Source of the DNA: Enterovirga sp.
GTDB lineage: Bacteria; Pseudomonadota; Alphaproteobacteria; Rhizobiales; Beijerinckiaceae
Assembly (NCBI RefSeq): GCF_028290205.1
Contig: NZ_JAQGKF010000147.1
Location: 1 to 43,735 of the forward strand
Length of the DNA: 43,735 bases
Direction of reading: 5' to 3'
The notes below the pieces were generated by a model. It was given only the letters and a program-made list of their open reading frames with translations. It was not told the origin of the DNA and did not search any database. The first letter of the stretch is position 1, and the number at the start of each line of letters is the position of its first letter. Positions 8,785 through 27,155 of the stretch are shown piece by piece. A program made the position numbers and the translations under genes.

Positions 8785-9731
8785 CGCGCCCCCACCACCC
8801 CCAAGACGAGCCCCGGGCGCGCGCGCCGATCCAGGCCTTCGGTCATCCCGGGCGGCTCGTCCCGTCCGAAGGCGGCGCGGAGCGGTCGCTCGCCGCCGTG
8901 ATTGCCATCCTGACGTTCCTGGCGGCGCTTGTGGCGGGGGCGGCCGAGATCGGCCTCACCACGGCCGCGTCCTGGCAGCAAGCGCTGGGGCGAGAGGCGA
9001 CCATCCAGGTCCGGCCCGCGCCGGGCCGGGACCTCGAGGCCGACACCGAGCGCGGTGCAGCGATCGCGCGGGCGACGCCCGGGATCCTGTCCGTCCGCAA
9101 GGTTCCGGCCGCCGAGGCCGCGCGCCTGCTCGAGCCCTGGCTCGGCACGGGCGCCGACCTGTCCGACCTTCCGGTTCCGCGCCTGGTTGCGCTGGCTCTC
9201 GATCCAGGCCGCCGGCCCGATCTCCCGGGCCTCGCCGAGCGGCTGCGGGCCGCCGTGCCGCCGGCGACGCTGGACACTCACCAGGCCTGGATGGAGCGGC
9301 TGTCGCGCGTGGCCGTGGCCGGAGGAGCTCTCGCGGCGGCCATCGTCGGGCTGGTTCTCCTGGCCAGTGCGGGAGCGACGGCCTTTGCGACCCGCGGGGT
9401 CCTCGCGGGCCACCGGGAGGTGGTCGAGGTGCTGCATCTGGCCGGGGCGGAAGACCGCTTCGTTGCCCGCCTCTTCGCCCGGCGCTTCGCGAGGTTGGGG
9501 CTCGGGGGGGCGGTGGCCGGAGCCACCGCCGCCGGACTCCTGATGCTGGCGCTCGGTTCGCTCCCCGCCCGGTTCGGCCCGGACAATGATGGGATCCAAG
9601 GGCTGTTCGGCGCCGTTTCCCTCGGCTGGCGCGGCTACGGTGCCATCGCGGCGGTGATGCTCCTGCAGGGCGTGGTCGCCGGGCAGGTGGCAGCGGCGGC
9701 GGTGAAACGGTTTCTCAAGGCGACGTCTTGA
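8781..9731 (+). CDS. ftsX: cell division permease FtsX
   Basis: Overlaps ftsE by 4 bp. Multiple TM segments and FtsX-like extracellular and permease regions. Confidence 0.88.
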   Translation: MTRPHHPQDEPRARAPIQAFGHPGRLVPSEGGAERSLAAVIAILTFLAALVAGAAEIGLTTAASWQQALGREATIQVRPAPGRDLEADTERGAAIARATPGILSVRKVPAAEAARLLEPWLGTGADLSDLPVPRLVALALDPGRRPDLPGLAERLRAAVPPATLDTHQAWMERLSRVAVAGGALAAAIVGLVLLASAGATAFATRGVLAGHREVVEVLHLAGAEDRFVARLFARRFARLGLGGAVAGATAAGLLMLALGSLPARFGPDNDGIQGLFGAVSLGWRGYGAIAAVMLLQGVVAGQVAAAAVKRFLKATS

Positions 9732-11786: not shown

Positions 11787-12365
11787 TCAGGTGAAGGCGG
11801 CCGAACCTTCGCCTTCCGAGAGTCGTCCGGCGATGCGGGCCAGGATCGGGTCGCTGACCCCGAGCTCGATCAGCTTGCCGTGCGTCGATTTGACGTAGTC
11901 CGGGTTCGCGCCCGAGATGCCGACCCCCTGTCGGACGAGCCGCACCAGATCCTCGACCGGGAGCCGCCCGGCATATTGCACGTGGGATCGGTCTGCCACG
12001 TAGGTCACGGCCATCACGTCGCGGCCGTCGTCGAGGCGGATTCGCACTTGCCGTTCGAGGTAGACGGCCGTGGCCTGCTCGCGCTCGCGCAAATAGGCGA
12101 GCGTGGCTTCGGCGAGCTCCGGCTCGCACCGGAAGGCGATGCCGCGGCACTGGCCGCCGCGGTCGAGACCGAGCACCAAGCCCGGCGTATCGGGCGTGCC
12201 GCGGTGCACATGCGAGAAGATGCAGAGCGACCGGTGGTAGCCGTGCAGCCGCGCGGCGTGCCGCTCCGCGTAGTCGAAGCCGGGCCGCCACATGAGGGAA
12301 CCGTAGCCGAACACCCAAAGATCGCCGCGTTCGGCCGCCATTGCGATCTCGCCGCCTCTCGTCAT
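11787..12365 (-). CDS. gamma-glutamylcyclotransferase, ChaC family
   Basis: LWVFGYGSLMWRPGFDYAERHAARLHGYHRSLCIFSHVHRGTPDTPGLVLGLDRGG is a ChaC signature. Confidence 0.92.
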   Translation of the reverse strand: MTRGGEIAMAAERGDLWVFGYGSLMWRPGFDYAERHAARLHGYHRSLCIFSHVHRGTPDTPGLVLGLDRGGQCRGIAFRCEPELAEATLAYLREREQATAVYLERQVRIRLDDGRDVMAVTYVADRSHVQYAGRLPVEDLVRLVRQGVGISGANPDYVKSTHGKLIELGVSDPILARIAGRLSEGEGSAAFT

Positions 12366-12394
12366 GCCGGGGCGGGGGGGCTACCAGTAAGCGC

Positions 12395-13456
12395 ATGCCA
12401 ACTCAAGACGAACCCGGCACCGATCTGCCGCCCCGCCGCCGCCCACGCCGCATCGGGCTGTATGGCCCCTTTCTGCTGCTGGCCCTGCTGGCTGTCGGCT
12501 GGAGCGTCGCCTGGCTGCTGATCCGCGAGCGCGCCGCCTCCGGGCTCGACGAGTGGATTGCCGCGGAGGCGAGCGCGGGCCGGCGCTGGAGCTGTGCCGA
12601 CCGGCACATCGGGGGCTACCCGTTCCGGATCGAGATCGCCTGCTCCGATTTCACGGTCGATCGGCCGGACGTGCATGCCTCGATCGGGCGGCTCCTGGTG
12701 GTGAGCCAGATCTACCAGCCACGCCACATCATCGCCGAAGCCTCGGGTCCGCTCCGCATCCAGGCCGGCCCGACCAAGGTCGAGGGCGATTGGCGGCAGC
12801 TCCAGGCGAGCGTGATTCTGCGCGAGCGCGGCTTCGACCGGATCTCGCTCGTGGCCGAGATGCCCAAAGCCGCGATGCAGAATTTCGGGGCCGCGACCCT
12901 CGACCTCGCCTCCCGGCGTTTCGAGGCCCATCTGCGGCCCGACCCGGCAGCGCCGGCCACGTTCGACCTCGTGATGCGCAGCGACGGCGCCGTGATCCCG
13001 GGCCTCGACGCGCTTGTGGGCGGCGAGGAGCCGGCCGATCTGCAGGTCGGCCTGGAGGTGACGGAAACCGACGACCTGCCGGCTCGCCCGCTCTGGAACG
13101 AACTCGAGCGCTGGCGCGTGGTCGGCGGGCGGGTCGAGCTGCGCAGCTTCGGCATGGTCAAGGGCCCACGCCGGGCCGAGGCCACGGGGACCTTCGGCAT
13201 CGACGCCGAGCACCGTGTCGAGGGCCGTCTGCAGATCGCCGCGCTCGGTCTCGGCGGTCTCTTGGGGCGGCTCGCCGACGGATCCGGGATCGGCGGCGCG
13301 CTGATCGGGGCCCTGCTCGGGACTCCGGAACCGGCGGTAGCCCCGAAGGGGGCCGCGCCCGGCCTCAGGCCCCTGCCGCCGCTGCGGCTGGACGGGGGGC
13401 GCGTGTTTGTGGGGCCGCTGGCGATCCCGGGGATCCGGCTGCCACCTCTGTATTGA
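12395..13456 (+). CDS. DUF2125 domain membrane-anchored protein
   Basis: MPTQDEPG start at 12395; N-terminal TM segment; GGYPFRIEIACSDFTVDRPDVHASIGRLLVVSQIYQPRHIIAEASGPL. Confidence 0.8.
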   Translation: MPTQDEPGTDLPPRRRPRRIGLYGPFLLLALLAVGWSVAWLLIRERAASGLDEWIAAEASAGRRWSCADRHIGGYPFRIEIACSDFTVDRPDVHASIGRLLVVSQIYQPRHIIAEASGPLRIQAGPTKVEGDWRQLQASVILRERGFDRISLVAEMPKAAMQNFGAATLDLASRRFEAHLRPDPAAPATFDLVMRSDGAVIPGLDALVGGEEPADLQVGLEVTETDDLPARPLWNELERWRVVGGRVELRSFGMVKGPRRAEATGTFGIDAEHRVEGRLQIAALGLGGLLGRLADGSGIGGALIGALLGTPEPAVAPKGAAPGLRPLPPLRLDGGRVFVGPLAIPGIRLPPLY

Positions 13457-15620
13457 GGCTCGCGGCAGCCGCCAGCAGGCGGCCGACCACGCGGGCGAGC
13501 AGCTCCTGACCGGCATCGCCGCGCGCGCTGAGGATCGATTCCGGGTGGAATTGCACGGCGGCCACCGGCAGCTCGGCATGCTCCACCGCCATCACGACCC
13601 CGTCCTCCGTTTGGGCGACGACGCGCAGCTCCGGCGGCAGCGCCCCGCCGCGCGCATGCAGCGAGTGGTAACGCCCCACCACCAGCCGCTCGGGCGTGCC
13701 GTCGAACAGCCGGCTCGGCCCGACCTGGATCTCCGAGGGCTTGCCGTGCACGGGGACGGCGAGTTGGTCGAGCGTGCCCCCGAAATGCTCGACGAGCCCC
13801 TGCAGCCCGAGGCAGACGCCGAAGACGGGCAGTCGGCGCGCGAGCGCAGCCGCGATGATCTCGCCCATGCCGAACTCGGCCGGGCGGCCGGGACCTGGCG
13901 ACAGCACCACGAGATCGGGTGCTGACCTGTCCAGCTCCGCCAGGGCGGCGCCGTGCCGGAAGGTGGACACCTCCGCCCCCGTCTGGCGCAGGTAGTCGGC
14001 CAGGTTGTGAACGAAGGAATCCTCGAAATCGACGAGCAGGACGCGACGCCCCGCGGCCGCCGCGTGGATGTCGTCGGCGGGGGCGTGGCCAGGGCGGGCC
14101 GTCCGGCCCCCGATGCTGGCCAGCATGGCCGAGGCCTTGAGCGCGCATTCCGCGTCCTCGGCCTCGGGGTCGCTGTCGTAGAGCAGCGTCGCGCCGGCCC
14201 GAACCTCGGCCACCCCGTCCTTGAGGCGCGCGGTCCGGATGGTGATGCCGGTGTCGAGATTGCCGTCGAAGGTGATGCGGCCGATGGCGCCCGCATACCA
14301 GCGCCGCGCGGAGCGCTCGTGGCGCTCGATGAAGTCCATGGCCCAGAGCTTCGGCGCGCCCGTCACGGTGACCGCCCAGGCATGCGACAGGAAGGCGTCG
14401 AGCGCGTCCATCTCGGGGCGGAGCAGGCCCTCGACGTGGTCCACCGTGTGGAACAGGCGGGAATAGGTCTCGATTTGCCGCCGGGCCAAAACCTTGACCG
14501 AGCCCGGCTCGCAGATCCGGGCCTTGTCGTTGCGGTCCACGTCCGTGCACATCGTGAGTTCGGCCTCGTCCTTGGCCGAACTGAGGAGGGTGCGGATCTG
14601 CTCCGCATCCTCGAAGGCGTCGCGACCCCGCGCGATGGTGCCCGAAATCGGGCAGGTCTCGACCCGCGAGCCCCGGACCCGCACGTACATCTCGGGCGAG
14701 GCCGCCACCAGGAACTCGCCTTCACCCAGGTTGAGCAGCCCCCCGTAGGGGGCCGGATTGGCGGCCGTCAGCCGGCGGAACACCTCGGACGGCTGGTCCG
14801 GGCAGGGCGCCCGGAAGGTTTGGCCGGGCACCACCTCGAACAGGTCGCCCCGAGCAAAAGCCTCCTTGGCCCGCAGCACCGTCTCGACATACTGGCCCGG
14901 GGCGTGGTCGCTGCCGGTCGCCACGTCGCCGCTCTGCGCAGGATTGTAGGGCGCCTCCGGCGTGGTCCGGGGCAGCCCGGCCGTGCCGACGCCCGCGACC
15001 TCGAAATCGTAGGACCGCCGCTCGGCCACCCGGCGGGCGTGATCGACCAGAATCAGCTCGTCCGGCAGGTAGAGCACGAGGTCGCGCGCATCGGCCGGAC
15101 GGGGAATGTGGCGCTCGATCTCCTCGAACTGGAAGGCGAGATCGTAGGCAAAGGCGCCATACAGGCCGAGGTGGTCGTCCTCGCGGCTGCCGAACAGGTC
15201 ACGCAGCCGGCGCAGCAGGGTCAGGATGGAGGGGCGGCGGCTGCGGTCCTCCTCGCGGACCTGCCCGGAGGGCGCCGCGATGCTGCCCGAGACGCTGTTC
15301 TGGTCCGCGTCGAGCGTGATCTCCGGCGCGGCCTCGAGCGCGGCCCGCACGGCCGGCAGCAGCACGCGGCCGCGCGCGTTCAGGGCCTCCACGGAGAAGC
15401 GCCGCTCGCGGGCGGTCACGCTCAGGGGCGGATCGACAAAGCCCATGTCCCAGCGCGTGTAGCGGCCGGGCGCCTCCATGCCGGACGAGAACAGCAGCCC
15501 CCGGCTCCCGTCGAGCTGCCCGATCAGCCCGTCGCAGGCATGGCCGTAGGGCAGGGCGGTGCGCGTGACCGCGACGCCGATGCCGCCGGCCGTCATGTAG
15601 CTATGGGTCGAACTCGACAT
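13365..15620 (-). CDS. trpE(G): fused anthranilate synthase TrpE-TrpG
   Basis: TrpE part GRITFDGNLDTGITIRTA, LTMCTDVDRNDKARICEPGSV; TrpG part VLLVDFEDSFVHNLADYLRQTGAEV, FGVCLGLQGLVEHFGG, AVQFHPESILS. Confidence 0.96.
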   Translation of the reverse strand: MSSSTHSYMTAGGIGVAVTRTALPYGHACDGLIGQLDGSRGLLFSSGMEAPGRYTRWDMGFVDPPLSVTARERRFSVEALNARGRVLLPAVRAALEAAPEITLDADQNSVSGSIAAPSGQVREEDRSRRPSILTLLRRLRDLFGSREDDHLGLYGAFAYDLAFQFEEIERHIPRPADARDLVLYLPDELILVDHARRVAERRSYDFEVAGVGTAGLPRTTPEAPYNPAQSGDVATGSDHAPGQYVETVLRAKEAFARGDLFEVVPGQTFRAPCPDQPSEVFRRLTAANPAPYGGLLNLGEGEFLVAASPEMYVRVRGSRVETCPISGTIARGRDAFEDAEQIRTLLSSAKDEAELTMCTDVDRNDKARICEPGSVKVLARRQIETYSRLFHTVDHVEGLLRPEMDALDAFLSHAWAVTVTGAPKLWAMDFIERHERSARRWYAGAIGRITFDGNLDTGITIRTARLKDGVAEVRAGATLLYDSDPEAEDAECALKASAMLASIGGRTARPGHAPADDIHAAAAGRRVLLVDFEDSFVHNLADYLRQTGAEVSTFRHGAALAELDRSAPDLVVLSPGPGRPAEFGMGEIIAAALARRLPVFGVCLGLQGLVEHFGGTLDQLAVPVHGKPSEIQVGPSRLFDGTPERLVVGRYHSLHARGGALPPELRVVAQTEDGVVMAVEHAELPVAAVQFHPESILSARGDAGQELLARVVGRLLAAAASLNTEVAAGSPGSPAAPQTRAPRPAAAAAGA

Positions 15621-15671: not shown

Positions 15672-15704
15672 AAAGGTCAGGGCCGCCTCCGGATCGGGGC
15701 AGCC
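15672..15704 (-). terminator. trp attenuator terminator hairpin (3:4)
   Basis: RNA GGCUGCC-CCG-AUC-CGG-A-GGCGGCC (15704-15681) forms a 10-bp stem with one bulged A and one G-U pair, followed by CUGACCUUU (15680-15672). Confidence 0.7.
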
Positions 15705-15728
15705 AAACGGTGACGTCCGGCAGGCCCC
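15696..15728 (-). promoter_or_regulatory. trp antiterminator hairpin (2:3), overlapping the terminator
   Basis: RNA GGGGC-CU-GCCGGACG-UCAC-CGUUUGGC-U-GCCCC: 8-bp inner stem with UCAC tetraloop plus 5-bp outer stem. Its 3' arm overlaps the 5' arm of the terminator. Confidence 0.7.
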
Positions 15729-15729
15729 C

Positions 15730-15777
15730 TTAGACGGGGCGCCACCACAGAAGGTCGGGACGGACGACGTTGCGCAT
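15730..15777 (-). CDS. trpL: trp leader peptide MRNVVRPDLLWWRPV
   Basis: ATGCGCAACGTCGTCCGTCCCGACCTTCTGTGGTGGCGCCCCGTCTAA: 15 codons plus stop with tandem Trp codons, 109 nt upstream of the trpE(G) ATG, followed by competing hairpins. Confidence 0.85.
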   Translation of the reverse strand: MRNVVRPDLLWWRPV

Positions 15778-15783
15778 CGGCTC

Positions 15784-15812
15784 AGCCTCGCACCGCCGCA
15801 TGCGGCCGTCAA
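15784..15812 (-). promoter_or_regulatory. putative trpL promoter
   Basis: -35 TTGACG (15812-15807), 17-bp spacer, weak -10 GAGGCT (15789-15784). Predicted TSS falls on or near the A of the trpL ATG (15777). Confidence 0.5.
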
Positions 15813-26536: not shown

Positions 26537-27155
26537 GGACAAAGTCCTGCCACCCGAGGCCTCCGAGCCGCTCGCTGCCACCGCCGCCGGTGTGCTCGGC
26601 GCGTCGGGCACCGGGCTTGTCGAGCGGCTCGGCGGGCGCTCGGTGGTGCTGGTCGGGCTGATGGGAGCGGGCAAGAGCACGATCGGCCGCAGGCTCGCCC
26701 TGCGCACCGGGCTGCCGTTCTACGACGCCGACACCGAGATCGAGACCGCGGCCGGGATGCCGATTGCCGACATCTTCACGATCTACGGAGAGCCGGCCTT
26801 CCGGGACGGCGAGCGCCGGGTCATCTCCCGGCTGCTCGAGGGCCCGCCCATCGTGCTCGCGACCGGCGGGGGCGCCTATATGGACCCAGAGACCCGGGCC
26901 CGGATCAGGGAGAGCGCCATCTCGGTCTGGCTCAAGGCCGATCACGAGACCCTGATGCGCCGTGTCCGGAAGCGCTCGCACCGGCCTCTTCTGCAGACCG
27001 CCGATCCGGACGCGACCATGCGGCGGCTCATGGCCGAACGCGACCCGGTCTACGCCCAGGCGGACGTGACCGTGCTGTCGCGCGATTCCACCCAGGACAG
27101 GGTCGTCCAGGACGTTCTCGCCGCCCTTTCAACGTTTATGTCAGCCGAGGTTTGA
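26535..27155 (+). CDS. aroK: shikimate kinase
   Basis: [52 protein letters not shown]. Confidence 0.94.

Follow-up and report, generated by a model that had tools for sequence, protein, structure and literature searches.

Does the short stretch preceding trpE(G), the fused anthranilate synthase gene of this Enterovirga genome, switch the gene according to the supply of tryptophan, and is the switch intact? A preliminary description of the window (the whole stretch of 43 735 nucleotides analysed here) had called it a complete, classical trp attenuator of rhizobial type. The gene is the sole full copy of trpE(G) in the genome, and Pfam assigns it chorismate-binding and glutamine amidotransferase domains. 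A longer version of the gene is excluded because an in-frame TGA (15635-15633) lies directly 5' of its ATG.

The leader ORF and its predicted promoter

The features from the promoter to the gene are as follows.

15812-15807, minus strand: -35-like hexamer TTGACG, 35 nt 5' of the leader ATG
15789-15784, minus strand: -10-like hexamer GAGGCT, with A at position 2 and T at position 6, a weak match read from the sequence
15777-15730, minus strand: leader ORF trpL, MRNVVRPDLLWWRPV, 15 codons, stop codon TAA
15742-15747, minus strand: tandem Trp codons 11 and 12 (TGG TGG), the proposed stall site, from the sequence and 68 of 98 loci
15631-15626, minus strand: Shine-Dalgarno-like GAGGAG of trpE(G), from the sequence
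13365-15620, minus strand: trpE(G), fused anthranilate synthase of 751 aa (Pfam PF04715, PF00425 and PF00117)

On the minus strand trpL reads ATG CGC AAC GTC GTC CGT CCC GAC CTT CTG TGG TGG CGC CCC GTC TAA, and exactly 109 nt separate its stop codon from the trpE(G) ATG at 15620; the ORF and the gap had been described in the same way, correctly to the base. ORFs of 15 codons lie under the usual size limits of gene callers. Five short ATG ORFs with TGGTGG near the stop codon occur on the two strands of the window, and a single one would mean little without conservation; only trpL adjoins a trp gene.

The two promoter-like hexamers are 17 nt apart, and from them transcription is predicted to begin at the leader ATG or beside it. 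Our reading of them is based on this spacing and on the relatives: a congener (G005) has the same TTGACG box 36 nt from its leader ATG, and of 64 distinct relatives 36 have a TTG at -40 to -33, where shuffles gave a mean of 6.5 and a maximum of 14. A consensus scan around the leader matched neither a promoter nor a terminator. Since the -35-like box keeps its distance from the leader ATG, transcription probably starts at or next to this ATG and the leader mRNA would be leaderless. This agrees with Sinorhizobium meliloti, where the 5' end of rnTrpL is reported to be the trpL ATG (PMC7298713).

Alternative hairpins and their conservation

Between trpL and the gene the transcript can form three hairpins, the last of which is followed by the tail.

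15740-15724, minus strand: pairing 1:2 (GCCCC ... GGGGC) between the last bases of trpL and those just past its stop codon; from folding, with a helix that covaries in relatives
15728-15696, minus strand: pairing 2:3, the antiterminator, -21.7 kcal/mol; from folding, with 97.6% of the cells of the homologous helix paired across 12 relatives
15704-15681, minus strand: pairing 3:4, the terminator hairpin, -16.7 kcal/mol; from folding, with a homologous helix that covaries in relatives
15680-15672, minus strand: tail CTGACCTTT 3' of the terminator stem, a weak U-tract; from the sequence, compared with 61 other loci

These three mutually exclusive hairpins pair as the preliminary description had written them, down to the CUGACCUUU that follows. 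The 3:4 segment folds better than any of 200 shuffles of its own sequence and the 2:3 segment is equalled by one of 200, the segments having been preselected; the stability of the whole 106-nt leader is unremarkable for its G+C content (z of -1.2). Folding was then run with the footprint of the ribosome blocked. The predicted fold has 1:2 and 3:4 together when there is no ribosome and 3:4 when the ribosome is at the stop codon, and the full 3:4 stem is gone when the ribosome is stalled at the Trp codons. In the stalled state G005 gives a clean 2:3 helix, and here the fold is mixed, the end of segment 4 serving as a further partner of segment 2. Mutually exclusive 2:3 and 3:4 helices, with 1:2 overlapping trpL, are expected of ribosome-dependent trp attenuators, and this sequence has them.

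Loci with relatives of trpE(G) were gathered by one scan of named genomes and two genome searches, and an ORF was counted when TGGTGG stood close to its stop codon 40-280 nt before the gene. Upstream sequence was usable for 98 fused trpE(G) genes, and 68 of these are preceded by such a leader, compared with 15 of 1960 dinucleotide shuffles (0.8%) and none of the 98 antisense strands. The ORF here, with WW at codons 11-12 and 109 nt from the gene, is one of this kind. The fused genes without a tandem-Trp ORF come mostly from Acidimicrobiia and Latescibacterota relatives. Upstream of 28 non-fused or partial hits no tandem-Trp leader was found, with the exception of Flavobacterium sp. Sd200 (L094, Bacteroidota), in which a leader-like ORF with three Trp codons, MILRSQNIATNFWWWQSTF, stands 99 nt before the trpE-like match.

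The pairing was examined in an alignment of 12 relatives (A1) from which the genus was left out. In it 83% of the cells of 1:2 plus 3:4 pair, a value that falls to 31-55% when the partner is slid by one to three columns, and 10 of the 17 pairs show two-sided changes, a number equalled by none of 500 shuffles. The structures were named from these same sequences, which makes the slid control somewhat favourable; the two-sided changes carry more weight. The competing 2:3 helix is paired in 97.6% of the cells. The preliminary description had made its reading depend on the conservation of the Trp codons and of the pairing among relatives, and both are thus borne out. A covariance model built from A1 (R1; short calibration) has its best match in the window at 15744-15672 on the minus strand (21.7 bits, E of 2.6e-5). 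In the whole genome this site comes second (21.7 versus 25.8 bits) to positions 26950-27023 of another contig (C144, locus L150), which has no tandem-Trp ORF and is probably a G+C-rich false match. Genome-wide searches of the genus gave several G+C-rich sites with comparable scores, and the highest-ranking ones again had no tandem-Trp ORF. R1 alone is not decisive because the C144 site outscores trpL without such an ORF. The Rfam leader families gave no match at the gathering score or at E values up to 5.

The leader peptide of G005 is MRNELTLASRWWRPV. At a protein identity of 75% to this genome, G005 retains the -35 box, ATGCGCAACG, TGGTGGCGCCCCGTCTA and the segment cores; start, Trp codons and stop are kept between the two while neighbouring bases have changed. 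Two Defluviicoccus bins (L077 and L093) keep the attenuator ∼150-200 bases 5' of trpE(G), scoring 61-63 bits with R1, and their leaders carry a single Trp codon (NRWRRA) where sister bins carry two.

A weak U-tract and the proposed mechanism

The tail was scored by counting U residues in the best 9-nt stretch 3' of the stem at the 62 loci with a scorable terminator arm. The tail here, CUGACCUUU, has four and, unlike most relatives, no immediate UU. Its rank (CUGACCUUUGCG) is third weakest of the 62, tied with six others, and that of G005 (GAGGUCCUAUGC) is second weakest; the G005 tail, given as GAGGUCCUAU, likewise has no immediate UU. Tails of the UUCGCA type make some relatives nearly as weak, and several relatives with such tails keep the whole layout. 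Efficient intrinsic termination is not assured by such a tail. Because the immediate U-run of most relatives is missing, the word 'complete' overstates the case, and with so poor a U-tract termination in the genus may be leaky or may need NusA, NusG or Rho. The other part of the earlier claim, ribosome-stalling attenuation, holds: Trp codons, pairing pattern and position are conserved.

Very probably trpL and the hairpins after it attenuate transcription of trpE(G) in response to tryptophan, in a ribosome-dependent way of the classical stalling type. From the elements, their conservation and their folding preferences we infer the start site, the stalling and the termination. Transcription would begin with the trpL ATG or close beside it, and trpL would be translated from a leaderless mRNA. 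With charged tRNA-Trp scarce, the ribosome would stall at Trp codons 11-12 and cover segment 1, the 2:3 antiterminator would form and trpE(G) would be transcribed. With Trp plentiful, the ribosome would reach the stop codon and cover segment 2, allowing 3:4 to form and transcription to end near 15672. If no ribosome is present, 1:2 and 3:4 would form together and transcription should also end.

Three other accounts of the locus compete with attenuation of this type. A random short two-Trp ORF beside G+C-rich hairpins might be suspected, given the five such ORFs in the window and an overall leader fold that is not exceptional for its G+C content, but we give this almost no credence: the position and the conservation in 68 of 98 orthologues, together with an R1 match obtained with the genus left out, refute a chance origin of the leader. 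The poor tail raises the other two. The attenuator may be decaying, the ORF and hairpins having been inherited and the U-tract lost, in which case there would be little or no regulation and trpE(G) would be nearly constitutive. The U-tract is indeed poor in both trpE(G)-bearing species of the genus, and the fused gene sits where the congeners have none. We nevertheless consider decay unlikely, as the -35 box, start, Trp codons, stop and segment cores have been kept between this genome and G005 despite changes in the bases next to them, and several relatives with TTCGCA tails retain the whole layout. It is also improbable that the same Trp sensing acts through an output other than an intrinsic terminator, whether Rho-dependent termination or masking of the trpE(G) Shine-Dalgarno sequence. 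The weak U-tract would suit such an output, and the unrestricted fold lets leader bases pair around the GAGGAG before trpE(G). However, the 3:4 hairpin is kept in place and covaries in relatives, and Shine-Dalgarno pairing arises readily by chance in G+C-rich RNA.

Attenuation in cis could be accompanied by action in trans. In S. meliloti rnTrpL is reported to target trpDC (PMC7143759), and the peptide peTrpL is reported to target a multidrug efflux operon and to have a role in two further species, Agrobacterium tumefaciens and Bradyrhizobium japonicum, despite having no similarity outside Trp (PMC7298713). By analogy the RNA, the peptide or both might be released and act in trans here, a possibility that the shared layout and probable leaderless start favour, as does the reported role of such dissimilar peptides. 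We regard it as doubtful, since the RNA is predicted to pair with the genome's own trpDC no better than with shuffled targets, 18 of 60 of which are as good in a low-power test that leaves accessibility aside. The earlier suggestion of a released, trans-acting RNA/peptide pair was an extrapolation from S. meliloti, and its RNA part finds no support in this duplex.

The attenuating leader proposed here resembles S. meliloti trpL-trpE(G) in its short Trp-rich ORF before a fused trpE(G) (14 aa there, 15 here), its probable start at the leader ATG and its mutually exclusive hairpins. It differs in having WW rather than WWW, a peptide that is dissimilar outside Trp, a weak U-tract and a trpE(G) of another clade, and trans roles are reported for S. 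meliloti. At the peptide level trpL of B. japonicum (MSTAVAPARLWWRTS, 15 aa; PMC7298713) shares the 15 codons, the tandem Trp at 11-12 followed by Arg and the trpE(G) context, whereas the remaining residues differ. In the E. coli trp operon attenuator, too, a ribosome stalled at tandem Trp codons selects the antiterminator over the terminator; unlike in E. coli, no long untranslated stretch is predicted before trpL here, a single fused gene lies downstream and there is no strong U-run.

The locus and the origin of trpL-trpE(G)

Both this genome and G005 carry trpL-trpE(G) in the locus hisC-tyrA-(GGDEF/EAL)-DUF2125-ChaC, flanked by the tyrA side and by a convergent DUF2125 gene. The DUF2125 gene (12341-13456, plus strand) and trpE(G) overlap at their 3' ends by 92 bp (13365-13456), and the arrangement is similar in G005 (L140). 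In G005, a GATTGCTTCGCTGCGCTCGCAAAGACGG-type repeat occurs in inverted copies just 5' of the trpL promoter (∼9230-9355); the window has none at the same place. Five other congeners (G001, G003, G006, G007 and G008) have the same locus without trpL-trpE(G). A separate trpE adjoins ppiD in G008, G003 and G006, and trpG is found directly before trpD in G008 and in part at a contig edge in G003. A search of this genome for a separate trpE found none, and the stretch before its trpD is occupied by another ORF; no trpG turned up ahead of trpD in G005 either. Elsewhere in the family, the sampled genera gave only matches of the separate trpE/trpG type.

An unrooted four-gene tree sets this genome and G005 apart from the other five congeners with full support. 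The tree of trpE(G) itself places this genome and G005 as a pair within a scattered proteobacterial group (support 93). Most trpE(G) of the order fall in a separate main clade of 40 rows, and 'rhizobial', as the gene had been called, is therefore a loose term for it. The simplest reading is that trpL-trpE(G) was acquired once, in the common ancestor of this genome and G005, although it may instead have been present ancestrally and then lost in the other congeners. It is plausible that trpL and trpE(G) arrived together, which suggests that the Trp switch travels with the fused enzyme as one unit. A well-supported Trp attenuator is added in a lineage where the other members of the family that were sampled have separate trpE and trpG. 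The two species are a concrete case of an attenuator that lacks a normal U-run and that either appears to work or has decayed. More tentatively, a horizontally acquired trpL-trpE(G), with its own promoter and Trp switch, might have displaced trpE and trpG in one sub-lineage and then lost its U-tract, leading to factor-dependent termination. We hold this to be a minority possibility; if true, the genus would offer a natural test case for the retuning of attenuators after transfer.

Among the more distant loci, five bins of Latescibacterota and Gemmatimonadota (L042, L052, L073, L081 and L082) have in common a longer ORF with ...SDLFTWWPFYGTRRHVMRSGA, ∼160 nt before trpE(G), which is perhaps another form of Trp leader.
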